A stretch of 64,000 bases of DNA from Kineococcus aurantiacus. Lineage in GTDB: Bacteria > Actinomycetota > Actinomycetes > Actinomycetales > Kineococcaceae. The stretch lies in assembly GCF_013409345.1 (NCBI RefSeq), contig NZ_JACCBB010000001.1, positions 2,170,001 through 2,234,000 on the forward strand, written 5' to 3'. The translations under genes were made by a program, and so were the position numbers. Within the stretch, counting starts at the first letter, position 1; every line of letters begins with the position of its first letter. Shown here piece by piece: positions 6,955 to 41,634 of this stretch. The notes below the pieces were generated by a model. It made no database searches. It saw only the letters and a program-made list of their open reading frames with translations, and had not been told where the DNA came from.

Positions 6955-8027
6955 ACCCGACCCCGGACCCGCCCCTGGACCTGGAGGGGGCCCGTTCCCA
7001 CGGGGACCCGCTCGCCGACGCCGTCGCCGACGCGGTGCTGGACGACGCCTCGGTGCGGGGGCAGTTCGCCACCGCCCTGCGCGACGGTTCGGCGGGCGCG
7101 GCCCACCCCGCGGTGCGCGCTTTCGTGGGTGAGCTGGAACGCCTGGCCGACGGCGCCGACCCCGCGCTGCTGGCCGCGGGCGCGCGGGCGACGTTCACGG
7201 CCCCGCTGGCCGTGCACGTCTTCGACGTGGGGGCCGGGGCGCTCATCAGCTCCTACCGGCCACCGGGCCCGGCGGCCGTGCTCGTCGGGACCGGACGCCT
7301 GGTCCACGGCACGCAGGGCCGGCTCACGGACACGGCCCGGTGGCTGTCGGCGGCCTCCCTGCCGGGGGGCCTGGTCCGGGGCGCCGAGGGCTGGGTCTCC
7401 ACGGCGTGGGTCCGGCTCGGGCACGCGCTGGTGCGCCGGGGCCTGCAGCGGCGCGGTCCGCTGCCCGACGGCTCGGTGCCGATCAGCCAGTTCGACGACG
7501 TGCGCACCTGGCTGGACTTCACCGTCGTCGCGCCCCGCTCGGCGCACCGGCTGGGGTTCGCCGTGACCGACGCCGAGTACGCGCAGTTCCTCACGTACTG
7601 GCGGTTCCTGGGTGAGCTGCTGGGGGTGCGCCCCGAACTCCTCGCCGGGGTCGTCGACCGCCGCTCGGCGGCGGAGCTGCTGCACCGGGTGGACGCGCTG
7701 ACCGGTCCGCCGTCGCAGGACTCCCGGGTGCTGGTGGCCGCCGGGGTCGAGGCCCTGGCGGGCGGCCTCACCGACCTCACCCGGATCCCGCACGGCCCGG
7801 CGCTGGCCGCCGCGCGCGTCGTGGCCCGGCACCTGCAGGGCCCGCAGCTGGGGCGGGCGCTGGGCCTGGGCGAGCCCGCCCCGCAGGACCGGCTCGTGCC
7901 GCTGGCCGCCGCGCTGGCCCGCGCCGGGCTGGCGGTGCTGCGGCGCTCGGACCGGGTGTGGAACGCGGTGCTGGAGGCGAACGTGGAGGCGAACCGGCGG
8001 TTCCTGCGGGAGACGGCGGCGGCGTGA
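6951..8027 (+). CDS. oxygenase MpaB family protein (DUF2236)
   Basis: A 358-aa member of the DUF2236/MpaB family, named for a fungal mycophenolate-pathway oxygenase; bacterial members are mostly uncharacterised. Recognisable are the GDPLADAVADAV opening, a long helical centre with VHGTQGRLTDTARWL, and WVSTAWVRLGHALVRRGL. The GTG start at 6951 overlaps the preceding stop by four bases. A second DUF2236 protein lies at 36688-37635, but the two are not close in sequence. Confidence 0.75.
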   Translation: MNPTPDPPLDLEGARSHGDPLADAVADAVLDDASVRGQFATALRDGSAGAAHPAVRAFVGELERLADGADPALLAAGARATFTAPLAVHVFDVGAGALISSYRPPGPAAVLVGTGRLVHGTQGRLTDTARWLSAASLPGGLVRGAEGWVSTAWVRLGHALVRRGLQRRGPLPDGSVPISQFDDVRTWLDFTVVAPRSAHRLGFAVTDAEYAQFLTYWRFLGELLGVRPELLAGVVDRRSAAELLHRVDALTGPPSQDSRVLVAAGVEALAGGLTDLTRIPHGPALAAARVVARHLQGPQLGRALGLGEPAPQDRLVPLAAALARAGLAVLRRSDRVWNAVLEANVEANRRFLRETAAA

Positions 8028-8037
8028 ACCCGGGCCG

Positions 8038-8277
8038 TCACCGGCTGCGGGGCAGGTCCTCCAGCCACTGCTCGACCTCGGCCAGCGTCAGGACCGGCCC
8101 GGCCGCGCCGAACGCGATGCGGGCGTCCTTCTCCCCCGGTCTCCCGCTGGTCAGCAGGTAGCCGGGGTGGCGGTTGGTGGGGGCCTGCAGGGTCCAGCCC
8201 TTGCGGGCGGCCTCCTTGCGCAGCCGCGCGAACCGCTCGTCGTCCCCGCCCGCGGCGGCGGGGGTGCCGGGGGTCAC
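8038..8277 (-). CDS. small hypothetical protein downstream of MerR
   Basis: A 79-aa protein I do not recognise. It is charged and soluble, with FARLRKEAARKGWTLQAPTN near the start and LTLAEVEQWLEDLPRSR at the end. Its GTG start overlaps the MerR stop by four bases (GTGA), so the two are translationally coupled and probably act in the same response. No cysteine or metal-binding motif is visible. Confidence 0.65.
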   Translation of the reverse strand: MTPGTPAAAGGDDERFARLRKEAARKGWTLQAPTNRHPGYLLTSGRPGEKDARIAFGAAGPVLTLAEVEQWLEDLPRSR

Positions 8278-8648
8278 GAGGCCCTCGCGCAGGCCGCGGG
8301 GTCGGCGCGGTAGGCCTGCCCGGCGCGGATGACGTCGTCGAGCTTGTCGCGGGTGGCGGTCAGCTCCTCGAGCTGGGCCTGGACGCGGGCCCGTTCGGCC
8401 AGCAGCCGCTCGTGCATCTCGTCGGTCAGGACGCCGTGGTCCATGCACGGCAGGATCCGCACGACGGCCTTGCTGCCCAGGCCGGCGGCGTAGAGGTTCT
8501 GGATGAAGCGCACCCGCTCGACCGCCGAGTCGGGGTAGTGCCGCTGCCCGCCGGGGCTGCGCTCGGCCACCAGCAGCCCCTGCTCCTCGTAGTACCGCAG
8601 CGCGCGGACGCTGACGCCCGACCGCTTCGCGACCTCGCCGATGCGCAC
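8274..8648 (-). CDS. MerR family transcriptional regulator
   Basis: A 124-aa activator/repressor. The N-terminal winged helix MRIGEVAKRSGVSVRALRYY is followed by EEQGLL, and a dimerising coiled coil (RLLAERARVQAQLEELTATR) follows. CMDHG in the middle is typical of MerR members that sit next to SDR genes. There is no obvious metal-binding cysteine pair. It is divergent from the SDR at 8749, with a perfect dyad in a MerR-type promoter between them, so it very likely controls that gene. Confidence 0.92.
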   Translation of the reverse strand: MRIGEVAKRSGVSVRALRYYEEQGLLVAERSPGGQRHYPDSAVERVRFIQNLYAAGLGSKAVVRILPCMDHGVLTDEMHERLLAERARVQAQLEELTATRDKLDDVIRAGQAYRADPAACARAS

Positions 8649-8710
8649 CGCTCCCCCTGCTCCCCCGTCCGGTGGACCCGTCCCGATACCGAAATCGACC
8701 CCGGGACGAC

Positions 8711-8742
8711 TTGACCCTCACGTCGACGTGAGGTCCTAGCGT
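8711..8742 (+). promoter_or_regulatory. MerR-type promoter with 18-bp palindromic operator
   Basis: TTGACC (8711-8716) and CTAGCG/TAGCGT (8736-8742) are separated by an unusually long 19-20 bp spacer. That spacer holds a perfect 18-bp palindrome, CCTCACGTCGACGTGAGG (8716-8733). A dyad inside an overlong spacer is the hallmark of promoters that MerR proteins activate by untwisting DNA. It reads toward the SDR at 8749. Confidence 0.8.
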
Positions 8743-8748
8743 ACCCGC

Positions 8749-9438
8749 ATGACCACTGCACTCGTCACCGGCGCCAACCGCGGCATCGGCCGCCACCTCG
8801 CCTCCCAGCTCCTGGAACGGGGGGCCAAGGTCTACGCCGCCGCCCGCCGTCCCGAGACCCTCGACCTGCCCGGCGCCGTCCCCGTCGCCCTCGACATCAC
8901 CGACCCCGACGCCGTCGCCGCGGCCGCCGCCCTGGCCACCGACGTGGACCTGCTGATCAACAACGCCGGCGTCTCCACCGGCGCGACCCTGCTCGGGGAC
9001 CTGGGACCGGTGCGCACCGAGCTGGACGTGAACTTCTGGGGCACCCTGGCGATGGTGCGCGCCTTCGCCCCCGTACTGGCCGCCAACGGCGGCGGCGCGG
9101 TCGTCAACGTGGCGTCGGCGCTGTCCTGGTTCGCCTTCCCCGGCGCCGGGGCCTACGCGGTGTCGAAGGCGGCGAACTGGAACATGAGCAACGCGCTGCG
9201 CCTGGAACTGGCCGGGCAGGGCACGCAGGTGACCTCCGTCCACCTCGGTGCGGCCGACACGGACATGATGAAGGACTACGACGGCGACAAGACCGACCCG
9301 GCGACGGTCGCCGCGCGCACCCTGGACGCCGTCGCGGCGGGTGAGCTGGAGGTCGTCGTCGACGAGTGGAGCGCGATGGTCAAGGCTTCCCTGGCCCGGG
9401 ACCCGCGGGAGTTCTACGCCGGCTTCCTGCCCGCCTGA
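8749..9438 (+). CDS. short-chain dehydrogenase/reductase controlled by MerR
   Basis: A 229-aa classical SDR: nucleotide-binding TGANRGIG at the N-terminus, LLINNAGVS, the helix NFWGTLAMVRAFAPVL, serine in NVASALSWF, and catalytic YAVSK. It is closely related to the SDR at 24989-25717 (shared RGIG, GAKVYA-ARRPE, GTLAMVRAFAPVLA-NGGGAV), so the two are paralogues with different regulators. Substrate unknown. The MerR-type promoter starts 38 bp upstream. Confidence 0.92.
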   Translation: MTTALVTGANRGIGRHLASQLLERGAKVYAAARRPETLDLPGAVPVALDITDPDAVAAAAALATDVDLLINNAGVSTGATLLGDLGPVRTELDVNFWGTLAMVRAFAPVLAANGGGAVVNVASALSWFAFPGAGAYAVSKAANWNMSNALRLELAGQGTQVTSVHLGAADTDMMKDYDGDKTDPATVAARTLDAVAAGELEVVVDEWSAMVKASLARDPREFYAGFLPA

Positions 9439-9549
9439 GACTGCCGCGGCAGGGCGGCCCCGGATCCGGGCGAACAGCGGGCGAGTAGTTAGAAGGTTGC
9501 CTAGAGTGACTCCGGGGGACGTTCTCGACCCGACGGGAGGCGGACGGAG

Positions 9550-11172
9550 ATGCAGCACGCCCCTGCGCCCGACCTCGACACCGTCTTCGCCGCCCTGCCC
9601 ACCGCGTACCTCGTGGTCGACCGCGACCTCGTGATCGTCGAGGTCAACCGCGCCTACGCGACCATGCTGTCGCGCCGTCGCGAGGACCTCGTGGGACGGC
9701 CCGTGTTCGAGGCCTTCCCCCCACCGCCGGACACCCTCGACGACGACGGCAGCAACCCCGCCGAGGTGTCCATGCGCCGCGCCCTGGCCGGGGAGACCGA
9801 CGTCCTGCCCACGCTGCACTACGACGTGGTCTCCCCGGCCACCGGCGAGCTGGTCCAGCGGCACTGGTCGGTCGTCAACGCCCCGCTCGCCGACGCCGAC
9901 GGCGTCGTCCGCTACGTCCTGCACCGCGTCGAGGACATCACCGACTACGTCCTGGAGCGGGCCCGCTCGGTGCAGGTCGAGGCCGAGCTGTTCGTGCGCG
10001 ACCGCGAGGTGGAGGTGGCCCGCCGCGCCGAGCGGCTGGCCGCCCGCACCGTCGCCGCGCAGGCGCACGTCGCGCTGCAGCTCGTCGAGGCCGGTGACCA
10101 CGACGAGCTGCTGGAGGGCGTGCGCACCTTCGCCCGCTCCGTGCTGGGCGCCGCCACCGCCTCCGCCGCCCTGCTCGGCGAGCGCCCCCCCGGCAGCGCC
10201 GCCGCCGAGGTGACGGCGGCGGGCTGCCCGTCCCTGGTGCAGACGCCCGTCGTCGTCGACGGCGTGCAGCTCGGCGAGCTGGCCCTGGGCTGGGACCACC
10301 CGCGGACCCTGGGCGCCGGCGACCACGAGGTCGTCGGGGCCGTCGCCGTCCAGTACGGCCAGGCCGTCCTGCGGCTGCGGCACCGGGCCGCGGAGCAGGA
10401 GGCCGCCGAGACCGCGCTGGCCATGTCGGAGACGTTGCAGCGCAGCCTGCTGCCGCGACCCACCGCCGTCGCCGGGCTCGACGTCGCCGTCCGGTACCGG
10501 CCCGCCTCCCAGCAGGCCCGGGTCGGCGGGGACTGGTACGACGTGTTCCACGACGCCGACGGGACCGCGGCCCTGACGATCGGCGACGTCAGCGGCCACG
10601 ACGGCACGGCCGCCGCCCTCATGGGTCAGGTGCGCTCCCTGCTGCGCGGCGTCGCCTACGCCACCCCCGCCGACCCCGGCCACCTGCTCGGCGTCCTCGA
10701 CGAGGCCCTGTTCGACCTCGGCGTGGACGCGCTGGCCACCGCGGTCCTGGTGAGCGTGCACCCCGACGGGCGCGGCGGGCGCTGCCTGCGCTGGTCCAAC
10801 GCGGGCCACCCCCCGCCGCTGCTGCTGCTGCCCGACGGGTCGGTGGAGGTCCTGGCCCGCGAACCGGAGCTGCTGCTGGGCTGCCGGACCGGCACCGGGC
10901 GCTCGACCCACCGCCGCGACCTGCCCGACGGGGCGACGGTCGTGCTCTACACCGACGGCCTCGTCGAACGGCGCGGCGCCACGATCGACGACGGCGTCCA
11001 GTGGCTGCGCGAACGGGTCGCCGCGCTCGCCGGGGACGACCCCGAGGAGCTGTGCGACGGCCTGCTGGCGGACCTGGGCGTCCCCGAGGACGACGTCGCG
11101 CTGCTGCTCGCGCGGGCCGTCCCCGCCGGCAGCCGCCCCGTCGCCGGCCTCGTCCTCACCGGGTCGGCCTGA
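9550..11172 (+). CDS. PAS-domain SpoIIE/PP2C-type serine phosphatase
   Basis: A cytoplasmic 540-aa signalling protein. An N-terminal PAS domain (AALPTAYLVVDRDLVIVEVN, then GRPVFEAFPP) is followed by a helical linker and a GAF-like region (about 165-280). The C-terminal PP2C-SIG domain (about 300-500) has LQRSLLPRP, VGGDWYDVF, IGDVSGHDG and SNAGHPPPL, including the metal-binding aspartates. Such proteins (RsbU/RsbP type) dephosphorylate anti-anti-sigma factors in the general stress response. No anti-sigma or anti-anti-sigma gene is adjacent. A second phosphatase lies at 34569-36308. Confidence 0.92.
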   Translation: MQHAPAPDLDTVFAALPTAYLVVDRDLVIVEVNRAYATMLSRRREDLVGRPVFEAFPPPPDTLDDDGSNPAEVSMRRALAGETDVLPTLHYDVVSPATGELVQRHWSVVNAPLADADGVVRYVLHRVEDITDYVLERARSVQVEAELFVRDREVEVARRAERLAARTVAAQAHVALQLVEAGDHDELLEGVRTFARSVLGAATASAALLGERPPGSAAAEVTAAGCPSLVQTPVVVDGVQLGELALGWDHPRTLGAGDHEVVGAVAVQYGQAVLRLRHRAAEQEAAETALAMSETLQRSLLPRPTAVAGLDVAVRYRPASQQARVGGDWYDVFHDADGTAALTIGDVSGHDGTAAALMGQVRSLLRGVAYATPADPGHLLGVLDEALFDLGVDALATAVLVSVHPDGRGGRCLRWSNAGHPPPLLLLPDGSVEVLAREPELLLGCRTGTGRSTHRRDLPDGATVVLYTDGLVERRGATIDDGVQWLRERVAALAGDDPEELCDGLLADLGVPEDDVALLLARAVPAGSRPVAGLVLTGSA

Positions 11173-36687: not shown

Positions 36688-37635
36688 GTGCCCCTCCTGC
36701 TCCCCGCCCGGCCGCCGCTGCACGACCGGGTCCGGGCGGGGTTCCGGGCCCGCGTCTCCGGTGACCCCACGGGGGCTCCGGACTGGGTCCGCGACATCGC
36801 CACCGTCGGGGGGGGCCCGGGCTGGTTCGAGCCCGACGGGGTCGTCTGGCGCGTCCACGGGGACCTGTCGACCCTGGTCGGCGGCATCGCCGCGCTGCTG
36901 GGCCAGGGCACCCACCCGCTGGCCCTGGCGGGGGTGCAGCGGCACTCCTCCTACCGCACCGACCCGTGGGCGCGGCTGGCGGGCACGGCCCGCTGGCTGG
37001 TCGTGTCGACGTTCGGGTCGGCGGAGCTGGCCGGGCGCGAGGCCGCGCGGGTGCGGGCGATGCACGAGCGGGTGCGCGGCACCGCCGGGGACGGCCGCGC
37101 CTACTCCGCCTCCGACCCGGACCTGCTGCGGTGGGTGCACCTGGCCTTCACCGACGCCTTCCTGGCCGCCCAGGACGCCTGCGGGCACGACCTGTCCCGC
37201 CGGTTCGGCCCCGGCTGGGGCGACGTCTACGTCCGGGACTGGGCCCGCAGCGCCCACGCCCTGGGGGCCCGGGACCTGCCGACGGGGCGCGCGGAGCTCG
37301 CCGAGGCGCTGCGGGCGGTGCGCCCGTCCCTGGCGCCGGTGCCCGAGGACCTGCGGGCCTTCATCGCCGCCCCCGCCGGGCTGAGCCGTCCCGAGCGGGT
37401 CGTCTACGGACGGCTGGCCCGGGCCGGGGGCCTGGTCCTGTCGCCGGTCCTGGCCGACCTGGCGGGGGTGCCGGGCCGGGCCGCGGGGCGGGGGCGGGCC
37501 CGGCAGCTGCGGGGGGCGCGGTGGTCGCTGCGGGCGCTGCAGCTGGCGCTGGGCCCGTACAGCCCCTCGGAGGAGGCCGCCCGGTACCGCACCGGCCGCG
37601 GACCGCGACCGGTCTGGCTCGACGACCACCCGTGA
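36688..37635 (+). CDS. oxygenase MpaB family protein (DUF2236)
   Basis: A 315-aa DUF2236 protein: VWRVHGDLSTLVGGIAALLG, THPLALAGVQRHSSYRTDPW, RLAGTARWLVVSTFGSAELA, YSASDPDLLRWVHLAFTDAF, and YVRDWARSAHALGARDLP. These match the canonical form of the family better than the protein at 6951-8027. It is presumably an oxygenase acting on an unknown substrate. The GTG at 36688 gives the normal start of the family. Confidence 0.85.
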   Translation: MPLLLPARPPLHDRVRAGFRARVSGDPTGAPDWVRDIATVGGGPGWFEPDGVVWRVHGDLSTLVGGIAALLGQGTHPLALAGVQRHSSYRTDPWARLAGTARWLVVSTFGSAELAGREAARVRAMHERVRGTAGDGRAYSASDPDLLRWVHLAFTDAFLAAQDACGHDLSRRFGPGWGDVYVRDWARSAHALGARDLPTGRAELAEALRAVRPSLAPVPEDLRAFIAAPAGLSRPERVVYGRLARAGGLVLSPVLADLAGVPGRAAGRGRARQLRGARWSLRALQLALGPYSPSEEAARYRTGRGPRPVWLDDHP

Positions 37636-37694
37636 GGGTGGTTCCCGCCCGGAACGCCCCTGGCGGTGAACGCCGGTCATTTACGATCCGCGTG

Positions 37695-38036
37695 ATGTCC
37701 ACGCTCAGTTCCCCTCCCCGTCCGGTGGGGTCCGGGGTCGCGCGCGCAGCGGCCCCGGCCGACACCGGCACCCTGCTGTGGCAGTGGTACGCCTCCCTGG
37801 ACGAGCGGGGGGTGGCCGAGGCACGCCGGTGCCTGCTGTCGGGCACCTGCTCCCGCGCCCTGCTGGAGTCCCTGCGCCGGGTCCTGCCGCCCGGGGTCGC
37901 CTCCCGGCGCGGGCTGGACGACCCGCACGCGACGAACCCCGGCGACCCGCTGGGCGCCCGGTTGCAGACGCTGCTGCGCCAGCAGCTGCTCACGGGGCCA
38001 CCGGCCCCGGCGCTGCTGCCGGCAGCGGGAGCCTGA
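37695..38036 (+). CDS. small hypothetical protein
   Basis: A 113-aa protein I do not recognise. The core is helical: LLWQWYASLDERGVAEARRC, then LLESLRRVLPPGVASRRGLD and GARLQTLLRQQLL. Third codon positions are almost all G/C. ATG at 37695 (a GTG three bases earlier is possible); the upstream CATTTACGATCC is unusually AT-rich and may hold its promoter. It is the last normal-composition gene before the low-GC island. Confidence 0.55.
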   Translation: MSTLSSPPRPVGSGVARAAAPADTGTLLWQWYASLDERGVAEARRCLLSGTCSRALLESLRRVLPPGVASRRGLDDPHATNPGDPLGARLQTLLRQQLLTGPPAPALLPAAGA

Positions 38037-38281
38037 CGCTCACCGCCTGTGTGGCCGGTGCCGTTGGGGAGCCGGGTCGCGCTACGGCAACTGGCGGGGA
38101 AACGGTCCGCTTCGCCCCGTTGGTCATTGCCCTGCGCTCCGGCCGCCACTGACTGTGGTTCGCAGGCGGCGGTGAGAGGTCATCACCGCCAGTACAGTCT
38201 CGACGACCCGGGCCGTGGTGACATCCTTCTCGCGCGGATGCTGCAGGAATGCTGAGTCGGACAGTCGGCGATTAAGTCGCA

Positions 38282-40432
38282 TCAACGTACATCATCGCTT
38301 CGCTTCCAGAAGAGAGTATAGGGCTCATCCACCCATTGAGTAACCGAATCTTCTGGCAAGACAGCCATCATGTAGCTGCTCTCGCTGCGTATTAGGAAGT
38401 GCAAGTGGGACCCATGCGCGAGCACGAGGTGGAGCTTGTTGCCGTGCGCCAGCTCTCTTGCCGTGATCGGGGCGACGGTCGGCTCAGCCCAGGGCGTATG
38501 GACACCCCCCTTGACTTGCGCTCCGGCTTCAAGGGTCACCTCACCCGTGACGCGACTTCCTTCTTCCATATCCAGAATTTCAGCCAGCTGAACACCTCTT
38601 TTAAAGACCAGGTCGCCCTGAACTGCCGCGCCGCCCCACAACTTGATCGACCCGCCAACCCGGGAGTCCTCTTCGAGATGAATTCCGTCGAAGGCAAAGA
38701 TTCCTGCTTTTAACGAGAAGCCGGAACTTCCCTTCTGCCCTTCACTCTTGCGGCTCCCGACCCGACTGAGGTCGTAGATCCCGATGTCATCGCTAATTTC
38801 CGCTCCCCTCCCGAGGAGGATGCCTCTCGAGACGCTGGCACTGGACGAAAGATGCAAATGTCCCAAAGTCGCTCCAGGTCGGACGATGACGTAAGCAGTC
38901 ACTCGAGTCGCTACAAGCGAAAGAGAGCTCACACGAGAGCCCGGCCCAAGAACGATCCCGTCACCGACGGTGCCCTCACCCAGTTGCACACCAGCACCGA
39001 TCTCTGCCGCCTCCCCGATGCGGAGACCACCGCTGACGGTTGCCGGCCCGGCGATGACCAGGCTACCCCCGATCCTGCTCCCGGCGCGCAGATCAATGTT
39101 CTTGATATGAGAGGAGGGCTCGATTCTCAGGGTTTGCTCAACTGCTCCGCCCTCTGCGACGACCAATCCGCTCAGCAAGGAGGAGCTGCGCTCCAGACGG
39201 ATCTCACGGACCCTGCTCTCGGCCTGCAACTGAAAGATGCCTTCGATCGTGAGGTCGCTACCACCTCGAACGTGTCCTCCGATCCTGGAGCCCTGGCCTA
39301 CGACAAACTGGCCCTTGAGGATGGTCTTGGCTTGAAGTTCGACGTTGCCGTCGATTTGGCACCTTGAACCGACGGCAACATCGCCGGGGATGGGCTGGCT
39401 AGAACCGAGTTCAATGTTTCCCTTGATGGTGGTGTCATCCCCGAGGGAGATTTCGCCACCGAACAGGCAATCGTTCAAGTTCAAGTCACCTGCGATGAAA
39501 GTGCGTCCCATCGTCAGCTTTCCGAGGGGGCAGCCGCTGAAGTCCGCTCCATCCAGGACCGCCCCTTGCAGGTCGATCGACTGAGGAGGTAGGTCGAGGT
39601 CGACACTGGACCGGAGAAGGTCCCTCATCAGTCGGAACGCGGTACGCCTGACCTCCCCCTCGGCATCGAGGATTCTCGAGTCCTTGTCGCTCTGCAATTG
39701 CCACTTGCGGCGTTCCCTGAGTGGCGGTGTACGGGCATCCCCAGGCCCACGAGGGCGGCTGCGATGATCGTAAGGCTGCCTCAGGTACGCACAGAAGATC
39801 TCGATCACTACAGGGCTCCGGCGAGCTCCTTCTCTTGATCTGGTGTCCTCGAGTGCCAACCTGTGAAGAGAGTGCAATCCTCCCAGACGGACTGATGCTG
39901 AGGTGTGACCAAGCTGGTCGATGGCACTACTGAAGCGTGCATCTTGTTGAGAGGTAACTGCCTGGCGCTGAGTCGCCAGGTCACGCTCCCGCGTCAGAGA
40001 ATTCGTAATGCTCGTCTGCATCACAGCTTCTCGAGCGAGTCGCGCGTTGTGATTGCTCACGATCACACCGATAGCGGCGGCGGCAGCGGCGAGCAGCGCC
40101 CCGGAAACAATTCCGACAGGCGCTCGAGCCGCCACCAGTTGACTCTCGTAGGCCTGTTCGTCAACGGCCCTGTCAAGACCTCGTCGGGCGGCATCCTCAC
40201 AATCAAGAGCCGCCCCTGGAGATGCACTCGTCGGGGCTGGACACGGCACCTCGAAAGACGCACGCGCCACGAGGTAATCGGGAAGAACAACCCACAAACC
40301 CGCGACCGCAATCAGCGCTCCGGCAAGTATCAGCCCGATGTTTCGCCATTCACCGCGATTGAAGCCTGCATCGTGTGTGCGCTTTCGCTGCGTCGAGCCG
40401 TGATGAAGACCCTCGTCTGCGCTGTCGTCCAT
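38282..40432 (-). CDS. membrane-anchored protein with ~24 twelve-residue repeats
   Basis: A 716-aa protein of unusual design. Two membrane helices (about 32-50 and 104-125) flank a small external loop with two cysteines. A cytoplasmic segment follows (RFSSAIDQLGHTSASVRLGG, LHSLHRLALED), well known at this position in membrane-bound pentapeptide-repeat proteins. One short pentapeptide-like stretch (LQGAVLDGADFSG, near 300-315) is present. The remainder is a 12-residue repeat, G-x-I/V-x-L-G-x-x-x-x-I/V-x (GNIELGSSQPIP, GDVAVGSRCQID, GNVELQAKTILK), about 24 copies with one short insertion. This implies a long beta-helix. ATG 40432 has AGGA nine bases upstream. GC is clearly lower than in its neighbours. 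Confidence 0.85.
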   Translation of the reverse strand: MDDSADEGLHHGSTQRKRTHDAGFNRGEWRNIGLILAGALIAVAGLWVVLPDYLVARASFEVPCPAPTSASPGAALDCEDAARRGLDRAVDEQAYESQLVAARAPVGIVSGALLAAAAAAIGVIVSNHNARLAREAVMQTSITNSLTRERDLATQRQAVTSQQDARFSSAIDQLGHTSASVRLGGLHSLHRLALEDTRSREGARRSPVVIEIFCAYLRQPYDHRSRPRGPGDARTPPLRERRKWQLQSDKDSRILDAEGEVRRTAFRLMRDLLRSSVDLDLPPQSIDLQGAVLDGADFSGCPLGKLTMGRTFIAGDLNLNDCLFGGEISLGDDTTIKGNIELGSSQPIPGDVAVGSRCQIDGNVELQAKTILKGQFVVGQGSRIGGHVRGGSDLTIEGIFQLQAESRVREIRLERSSSLLSGLVVAEGGAVEQTLRIEPSSHIKNIDLRAGSRIGGSLVIAGPATVSGGLRIGEAAEIGAGVQLGEGTVGDGIVLGPGSRVSSLSLVATRVTAYVIVRPGATLGHLHLSSSASVSRGILLGRGAEISDDIGIYDLSRVGSRKSEGQKGSSGFSLKAGIFAFDGIHLEEDSRVGGSIKLWGGAAVQGDLVFKRGVQLAEILDMEEGSRVTGEVTLEAGAQVKGGVHTPWAEPTVAPITARELAHGNKLHLVLAHGSHLHFLIRSESSYMMAVLPEDSVTQWVDEPYTLFWKRSDDVR

Positions 40433-40785
40433 GAGCTTGATCCTGCCCCATTGCTGTTCCGAGCGGGGCGGAATCTGTTCACGTTCCGACTGGTAGGGGT
40501 TCGCACCTGACGCAAATTCCTCTCCACCGGCGTCTGGCTCAACTGAGCACAGTTGAGTCGTCCAAGTGCGCTGGTGCAGACGTGCAGTTGGGCCGCCGAG
40601 GAGGTGAGGCGACTGGCGGCTTGACTGCACACCATCCTCAAGCACGCAGATGTCATGGTCATCGACGTCACTGCGACGGCGGGCGGCCGAGGCGAACCGC
40701 TCCCGGTGACGCCCGTACCGGCCGCGTCCGCCAGCCAGTTCTCAGTGTTGTCGGCATCGCCCGGCGCAGGGCAGGATGGAGCCCC
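40433..40785. other. non-coding flank of the low-GC island
   Basis: 353 bases without a convincing gene on either strand. Composition rises from AT-richer near 40433 to normal near 40680. It must hold the promoter of the repeat-protein gene. I saw no tRNA, direct repeat or integrase remnant. Confidence 0.5.
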
Positions 40786-41634
40786 TCAGCCGGTGAGCGG
40801 CCCGTACAGCGCGGGCCGGCGGTCGGCGTGCACGTGGTTGCGCGCCGACACCCGCTTGTCCCGGGCCTCGGCCAGCCGGCAGTCGGCGAGGAGCACCTGC
40901 TCGGCGCCCCCGGCCTCCGCCTCGGCCAGCGGGTAGCCGTCCGGCCCGACGATCGCCGAACCGGCCACCCACTCCACGCCGCGTTCGGTGCCGGTGCGGT
41001 CGCAGGCGGCCACGAACATGCGGTTGGCCGCGGCGCCGGCCTGGACCTGCACCACCTCGATGGGCCGTTCACCGCCCCCGCGGCGCGGGCCGGGCCAGTT
41101 CGTCGGGGCGCAGACGAGGTCGGCGCCGGCCAGGCCCACCAGGCGCACCCACTCGGGGAACTCCAGGTCGTAGCAGATCACCAGGGCCAGCCGCCCCAGG
41201 TCGGTCTCGACGACCTGCGGCGGCTGGTCGCCGGGGACGAAGAACTCGCTCTCGCGGTCCCACAGGTGCACCTTGCGGTAGACGGTGCGCACCCCGGTGG
41301 GGTCGACGAGGACGGCGCTGTTGCGCAGGGTGCCGTCGTCGGCCCGCTCGGCCAGCCCGGCCGCCACCACGAGGCCGTGCCGGCGCGCGGCGGCGGTGAG
41401 GGCCGCGGTGGTCGGGCCGTCGAGGGGTTCGGCCAGCGCCCGCGCCTCCTCGGCGGACTCGAACACGTACCCGCTGCGCAGCAGTTCGGGCAGGACGACG
41501 ACGCGCGCCCCGCGGGCCGCGGCCCGGTCCAGGGCCGCCAGCCCGCGGGCCAGGTTCTCCTCGGGGCGGCCCACGGCGAGCGCCACCTGGCACACCGCGA
41601 CGGTGGTCCCCGCACCGACGGCGGAGGCGGTCAC
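40786..41634 (-). CDS. carbon-nitrogen (nitrilase superfamily) hydrolase
   Basis: A 282-aa amidase/nitrilase-type enzyme. The catalytic triad is complete: Glu50 in VVLPELLRSGY, Lys121 in VYRKVHLW, Cys154 in LVICYDLEFPEW. Substrates in this superfamily include aliphatic amides, N-carbamoyl compounds and omega-amides. Its GTG overlaps the stop of the APC permease by four bases, so permease and hydrolase are co-translated and probably import then hydrolyse the same nitrogen compound. The LacI regulator upstream likely controls both. Confidence 0.92.
   Translation of the reverse strand: MTASAVGAGTTVAVCQVALAVGRPEENLARGLAALDRAAARGARVVVLPELLRSGYVFESAEEARALAEPLDGPTTAALTAAARRHGLVVAAGLAERADDGTLRNSAVLVDPTGVRTVYRKVHLWDRESEFFVPGDQPPQVVETDLGRLALVICYDLEFPEWVRLVGLAGADLVCAPTNWPGPRRGGGERPIEVVQVQAGAAANRMFVAACDRTGTERGVEWVAGSAIVGPDGYPLAEAEAGGAEQVLLADCRLAEARDKRVSARNHVHADRRPALYGPLTG

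Follow-up and report, generated by a model that had tools for sequence, protein, structure and literature searches.

A membrane-anchored protein of Kineococcus with 12-residue repeats, possibly a widened pentapeptide-type beta-helix

The minus strand of a 64,000-nucleotide stretch of the Kineococcus aurantiacus genome (the window) carries an intact open reading frame (ORF) for a 716-residue membrane-anchored repeat protein, P0001 (38282..40432, ATG at 40432). We propose, with a probability of about one half, that P0001 is a cytoplasmic rod tethered to the membrane, in which a pentapeptide-type right-handed helix is widened to about 24 residues per turn, and that it serves in scaffolding or binding and is encoded by an accessory gene. 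At the N-terminus, two membrane helices, together with a long helix, would place a conserved helical domain, then the beta-helix, on the cytoplasmic side. The beta-helix would begin as a right-handed helix of the pentapeptide type and would widen from there, each half turn gaining one residue at a time, to units of 11 and then 12 residues. With two units and four strands in each turn of about 24 residues, the rod would have about 13 turns. It might offer a scaffold or a binding surface at the membrane, with no recognisable enzyme part. We infer the right-handedness, the residues per turn and the topology; the scaffold function is a guess.

The repeat tail opens with a pentapeptide-like start and two 11-residue units (residues 284-325, 39458..39583; units 304-314 and 315-325; all features of the protein lie on the minus strand). 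A first 12-residue array follows (residues 326-559, 38756..39457), in which about 20 units of 10-13 residues were counted by hand. In the AlphaFold2 model, the predicted local distance difference test (pLDDT) gives block values of 90-97 over residues 281-510 and 65-82 over 511-560. A 22-residue insertion (560-581, 38690..38755) interrupts the period, with pLDDT below 50 at 560-582. The second array (582-641, 38510..38689) holds five 12-residue units by hand count, read by eye; model strands are about 12 residues apart there and block pLDDT is 64-76 over 581-640. A C-terminal tail of low model confidence (642-716, 38285..38509) ends the protein. An earlier note on this DNA had described a regular 12-residue repeat of about 24 units with one short insertion near the end. 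The repeat and the insertion are borne out; the hand count comes to about 25 units rather than 24.

Hydrophobic autocorrelation over residues 326-645 of P0001 is 0.49 at lag 12, which is 9.8 standard deviations (sd) above shuffled sequences. The values at lags 24, 6 and 18 are 6.2, 5.8 and 2.4 sd. For the stretch 326-558 alone, lags 12, 24, 6 and 18 give 8.3, 5.2, 4.5 and 1.3 sd. Lags 12, 24 and 18 stand at 5.5, 2.6 and 1.4 sd in the homologue L004, and at 15.4, 14.7 and 5.5 sd in P0002, the regular homologue from K. rubinsiae. A profile built from more regular relatives scores 58.5 on residues 271-716 of P0001; the highest score among 100 shuffles was 11.3. Automatic segmentation recognised only 10 units in P0001, because its units are diverged; the procedure permits a length change in one loop only, and the positions of length changes in its output support no claim.

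Immediately behind the pentapeptide-like start, P0001, P0002 and L004 each have two 11-residue units; their remaining units are mostly of 12 residues. By eye, the first one or two units of L003 and L015 also read as 11 residues. The hydrophobic spacing is 4-2-5 in an 11-residue unit of the outside relative L056 (AHFHGDASLDG), 4-2-6 in the Kineococcus 12-residue unit (AHIGGDLRLGEG) and 5-2-5 in the aromatic 12-residue unit (AxFSGGxVxFxx). Judging from these spacings, the 11-residue unit seems to have gained one residue twice, independently: in one loop to give the aliphatic and in another to give the aromatic 12-residue unit. The repeats of L002, L003 and L015 are near-identical tandem 12-residue units, suggesting recent growth of the array.

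Ahead of the tail, hydropathy marks two membrane segments, at residues 30-58 (40259..40345; model helix 26-57) and 99-127 (40052..40138; model helix 96-174). A conserved helical anchor core follows at residues 164-220 (RFSSAIDQLG...VRLGG...CAYLRQP; 39773..39943), seen in alignments A1 and A2 and modelled with block pLDDT 83-97. The RFSSAIDQLGHTSASVRLGG segment corresponds to residues 166-185. The two membrane helices and a segment of this type before the repeats had been recognised in the earlier note and are confirmed; elsewhere, the anchor precedes pentapeptide-type repeats. Its membrane segments and QLG...VRLGG...CAYLR core place P0001 among the anchored relatives. The counts of K+R to D+E are 5/2 before the first membrane segment, 3/8 in the loop between the two and 4/3 after the second. 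This distribution suggests that both ends of P0001 are cytoplasmic (N-in/C-in).

The anchor connects P0001 with the anchored pentapeptide-type proteins (Pentapeptide_3, PF13576). These have in common with the Kineococcus proteins one or more N-terminal membrane segments, the QLG...VRLGG...CAYLR core, an EVRxTAxRL segment and a repeat tail. Their tails pass Pentapeptide_3 in all five outside relatives scanned (33 to 186 bits) and have 5-, 11- or aromatic 12-residue periods. In contrast, the Kineococcus tails are made of aliphatic 12-residue units and are below the cut-off or unlisted for this profile. P0001 scores 14.8 bits against a cut-off of 27, with its best stretch at 289-327; P0002, L003 and L004 are not listed at all. 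The Pfam Pentapeptide profile is also below its cut-off in P0001 (11.9 against 20.2 bits, best stretch 287-301). By these two profiles, P0001 falls outside the definition of a pentapeptide repeat protein given in an excerpt of PMC8145042, namely at least eight contiguous consensus pentapeptides. The same paper describes HglK of Anabaena, in which, as in P0001, a long stretch of repeats makes up the C-terminal part, behind membrane regions. HglK differs in having four membrane regions and 36 true pentapeptides, and the likeness is one of description only. It provides a precedent for a membrane pentapeptide protein that affects the cell envelope (PMC8145042, excerpt).

Genome searches at an expectation value (E) of 1e-8 covered 198 genomes of the order and 394 of the class with L003 as query, and 396 of the phylum with P0002. 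Matches were found in 11, 50 and 42 genomes, respectively, counts that include the window's own genome and, for the order, other Kineococcus. The best six (order), three (class) and two (phylum) candidates per genome were scored, and the loci read are samples. Among the loci read, the aliphatic 12-residue version was confined to Kineococcus. In the phylum, P0002 mostly matches through its repeats alone, in frames of about 240-310 residues that are probably LpxA-type genes. A scan of 84,980 species genomes with two anchor motifs retrieved 21 relatives; one is K. rubinsiae (L035), and none of the other 20 shows the aliphatic 12-residue tail. In plasmid records, 26 of 30 anchor matches are labelled pentapeptide repeat-containing protein. 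The labelled relatives are found in Streptomyces, Nocardiopsis, Rhodococcus and Verrucosispora, and the anchor also occurs in unannotated genomes of Lentzea, Actinoplanes and others. We found no description of the anchor-plus-12-residue-repeat layout in the literature covered, most subscription journals being outside this coverage. Thus, of the new type of membrane-anchored solenoid that the earlier note had envisaged, the anchor with a pentapeptide-type tail is already known, and the aliphatic 12-residue version is a variant that, at the loci read, was met only in Kineococcus.

The periods of the tails were surveyed at 59 loci, Kineococcus included. Of these, 37 were readable; among the other 22, a solenoid ORF went unrecognised at 21, and one locus was short or a duplicate. 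A rerun of the 22 on both strands added six (L028, L058, L059, L064, L071, L079), leaving out two misread frames (L063, L070) and 14 loci without a recognised solenoid ORF. Pentapeptide periods occur in the tails of, for example, L007, L028, L029, L055, L068, L073, L075 and L080. Periods of 11 or 22 residues are found in L039, L040, L044, L048, L054, L056, L057, L059, L060, L064 and L065, among others. Aromatic 12- or 24-residue periods characterise L032, L052, L079 and L081 and, by eye, L062, L063, L066, L067, L070 and L078. Other loci have a weak period or no clear one. At L037 (about 7830-9741, Lentzea), two anchored paralogues lie in tandem, and their tails show a weak periodicity of 11 or 22 residues. 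At L039 (7461-9164, Actinoplanes aureus), an anchored gene with 11-residue repeats is located a few kb from ORFs that resemble phage tail and lysin genes by eye.

The earlier note had supposed a solenoid, and both AlphaFold2 models are beta-solenoids. The P0001 model, obtained with an 18-row alignment, has strands from residue 284. The P0002 model, folded from its single sequence, has two strands per 12-residue unit and block pLDDT of 86-96 over residues 311-630; its anchor is mostly below 60. The best-ranked structural alignment of the P0001 model, among the matches listed, is with the Sf6 tailspike (Z 19.9, root-mean-square deviation (rmsd) 3.2, 292 aligned residues). In the matches listed for the P0002 model, Vag8 (Z 22.9, rmsd 4.5, 313 aligned) and UpaB (Z 22.4, rmsd 4.2, 299 aligned) are accompanied by the pentapeptide protein AlbG (Z 13.5, rmsd 3.5, 193 aligned). 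The top matches from VIA-align, for both models, are proteins that we take to be mainly right-handed parallel beta-helices. Residues 319-666 of the P0002 model superpose on residues 21-311 of an antifreeze helix, whose turns presumably have 19 residues, so that the model would have roughly 23 residues per turn. No hexapeptide acyltransferase appears among the 50 matches listed per model, lists that are ranked by Foldseek only and exclude nothing. A viral structure library gave six matches at E of at most 0.001, all with TM-scores of at most 0.34, which are uninformative.

Several results weigh against a widened right-handed helix. The Pfam Hexapep profile (cut-off 27) is passed by P0002 (83.9 bits) and L003 (64.1), with P0001 just below at 26.8 and L004 at 19.2. 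Sequence matches in the PDB at E of at most 0.001 consist, for P0001, of one LpxA chain sequence and, for P0002, of 27 chain sequences from acyltransferases, GlmU and carbonic-anhydrase-like subunits. A PHROG of unknown function is also matched (45 and 108.9 bits). Lag 6 is significant in P0001 (4.5-5.8 sd), and so is lag 18 in P0002. On the structural side, the best Foldseek E values against solved structures, 0.16 and 0.21, are not significant; only 2 of the 18 alignment rows of P0001 cover the solenoid, and the second array has the low pLDDT given above. AlphaFold2 is reported, in an excerpt of PMC11795689, to over-predict beta-solenoids for perfect repeats. According to the same excerpt, prediction methods agree for four solenoid families with diverged repeats; together, these findings tell more strongly against the model of P0002 than against that of P0001. 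The counts of K+R to D+E before the first membrane segment are 3/3, 3/3, 5/3 and 1/1 in the other four homologues, neutral in three of the four, which makes the charge evidence for the topology weak. Finally, no conserved neighbour gene supports any function.

The profile matches and the two lags would be explained by a left-handed hexapeptide beta-helix, with three six-residue sides and 18 residues per turn, fused to a pentapeptide-type anchor. This corresponds to the swap of one solenoid for another that the earlier note had inferred, and we consider it unlikely, although it fares best among the alternatives. The EIF2B LbH profile and NCBIfam acyltransferase models match as well, all below their cut-offs, and the phylum matches of P0002 through its repeats alone agree with it. 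The left-handed helices of the LpxA, GlmU and NeuD type (Hexapep, PF00132) do have a hexad-like sequence in common with P0001 and its two relatives that pass the profile. They appear to differ from it in sequence period, which is 12 and 24 in P0001 rather than 18, and in the predicted right-handed superposition, which extends over roughly 250-350 residues in both models; the membrane anchor of P0001 is a further difference. No acyltransferase or nucleotidyl domain was found in P0001. Five hexapeptide proteins of the same genome served as controls (five of six were readable), with stretches of 119-170 residues, including sequence outside the helix, compared with 233-320 for the repeat proteins. 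At lag 12 they gave 0.5, 2.6, -0.2, 0.9 and 1.4 sd, at lag 24 0.4, 1.0, 0.2, -0.8 and -0.5 sd, and at lag 18 0.9, 1.3, 3.1, 2.5 and 1.7 sd. The array of P0001 also begins with 11-residue units resembling those of the Pentapeptide_3 relatives.

We gave more weight to the period, the 11-residue start, the anchor family and the models than to the Hexapep-type profiles. Widening of the right-handed helix is preferred to its replacement because the tail opens pentapeptide-like and continues with 11- and then 12-residue units, because the anchor is followed in other proteins by repeats of 5 or 11 residues or by aromatic ones of 12, and because both models superpose on right-handed helices. Of the proposed swap, the anchor and the predicted solenoid stand; the replacement is less supported, with the profiles pointing the other way. 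A more specific claim is tentative, and we would put it somewhat short of even odds. The tail may be a naturally occurring right-handed beta-helix that is four-sided, with six residues to a side (24 residues per turn), and that arose from a pentapeptide helix (20 per turn) via 22-residue turns, the three widths succeeding one another along a single chain. Convergence of its sequence on the motif of left-handed hexapeptide helices would lead standard profiles to the wrong fold. If the widened right-handed helix is real, a beta-helix can change its residues per turn stepwise within one chain, and an evolutionary route joins pentapeptide-type and hexapeptide-type repeats. It would also mean that Pfam Hexapep matches can mark a wrong fold, and it would provide a simple, testable model for beta-helix width.

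Bactofilins (PF04519) have an aliphatic right-handed beta-helix and are small polymer formers without an anchor of the P0001 type. A putative membrane-anchored polymer of this kind, with solenoids stacked end to end as cytoskeletal filaments at the membrane, is rather improbable for P0001. One Kineococcus relative, L003, passes the Pfam Bactofilin profile (33.1 bits, cut-off 27.9). It is the only one of four homologues scanned to do so (P0001 15.5, P0002 20.9, L004 11.5), the anchor belongs to pentapeptide-type proteins, and the low-confidence C-terminal tail would occupy one end of the rod.

Cytoplasmic pentapeptide proteins are known to include DNA mimics. A putative protector like Qnr or MfpA, in which an acidic helix would bind a DNA-handling enzyme near the membrane, has little probability here. 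On the repeat side, D+E outnumber K+R by 56/29 in P0002, 40/11 in L003, 40/29 in L004 and 41/13 in L015, but the excess is small in P0001 (47/39). Moreover, the membrane anchor is unlike the soluble gyrase protectors, and no gyrase or drug gene was seen among the nearby ORFs read.

That the solenoid is an artefact and the repeats are partly disordered is very improbable: the over-prediction for perfect repeats (PMC11795689, excerpt) could apply to P0002, which is near-perfect and was folded alone, but the diverged P0001 and L004 keep their hydrophobic period, and the methods agree for the four diverged-repeat families of the same excerpt.

Other functions were considered. A defence system was rejected, as none of four homologues matched a PADLOC model, even at E values of up to 10. 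An acyltransferase was also rejected, with no catalytic domain beside the repeats and all NCBIfam matches below cut-off. An adhesin or secreted protein was set aside; the two membrane segments and the charges of P0001 put the repeats inside, a pattern that is weak in the relatives.

Eleven Kineococcus genomes, the window's own included, were compared. The anchor with aliphatic 12-residue repeats is found in five of them (G000, G004, G005, G006, G009). G001 has the anchor with another tail and G007 the anchor with true pentapeptides; the other four have no match at E 1e-5. In the one sister-genus genome of the family (G011), the anchor carries pentapeptides. The linear plasmid pKRAD01 carries the G004 copy (K. 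radiotolerans). In G005, the copy runs across both ends of an 18.6-kb contig, which is probably a circular plasmid because of an exact terminal overlap of 95 bases; this overlap falls in the repeats, which leaves some doubt. The G006 copy (K. rubinsiae) lies on a 5.2-kb contig with an apparent IS110-type transposase, identified by eye. No conserved partner gene was seen by eye beside the Kineococcus copies. AAA_10, NlpC/P60 and FtsK genes lie near the pKRAD01 copy and were not seen, again by eye, beside the others. We infer from these contexts the route of spread of a P0001-type accessory gene, by plasmids and islands within Kineococcus. The lack of an enzyme part and of a conserved neighbour, together with this sporadic carriage, makes a membrane-tethered scaffold or binding rod the likeliest role.

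Three observations concern individual copies. The pKRAD01 homologue, WP_012001937.1 (L012, 9758-11566), is labelled 'UDP-glucose 4-epimerase', a label for which Pfam and NCBIfam scans give no support. Its gene and those for AAA_10, NlpC/P60 plus transglycosylase, and FtsK follow one another on one strand, in what resembles a conjugation locus. On the 18.6-kb contig (L015), we named by eye a ParA-like gene, a large ORF resembling a DNA methylase and, adjoining the repeat gene, a tyrosine recombinase. G005 also has a second anchor copy (L008, at the end of G005:C31), whose reading frame meets a stop codon directly behind the QLG motif, close to where the contig ends.

In the window, the P0001 gene is preceded by AGGA 8 bases 5' of its ATG. 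Its guanine plus cytosine (GC) content is 59.9%, against 74.4% for the whole window, and its GC at third codon positions (GC3) is 64.3%, against 92.1-98.5% in five nearby genes. The low-GC island reported in the earlier note is thus real. It extends over about 2.6 kb (38100..40699, no strand assigned), with 100-base GC of 0.50-0.69 versus 0.69-0.81 in the flanking stretches, and inspection by eye revealed no obvious second gene within it. The horizontal acquisition that the same note had inferred is plausible, because of the low GC3 and the relatives on plasmids. A phage origin was rejected, as phage records hold no relative of P0001 at E 1e-5 and two pattern-based scans of viral contigs confirmed none. 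Searches of the island for RNA families, promoters and terminators returned nothing useful, and the direct repeats that flank it are only short and imperfect. An empty insertion site was not found. The right flank of the island matches G005 from window base 40795 on, and the left flank lies on a different G005 contig. Since the flanks of window positions 37619-40795 fall on separate contigs in G005, the island may sit at a rearrangement point.

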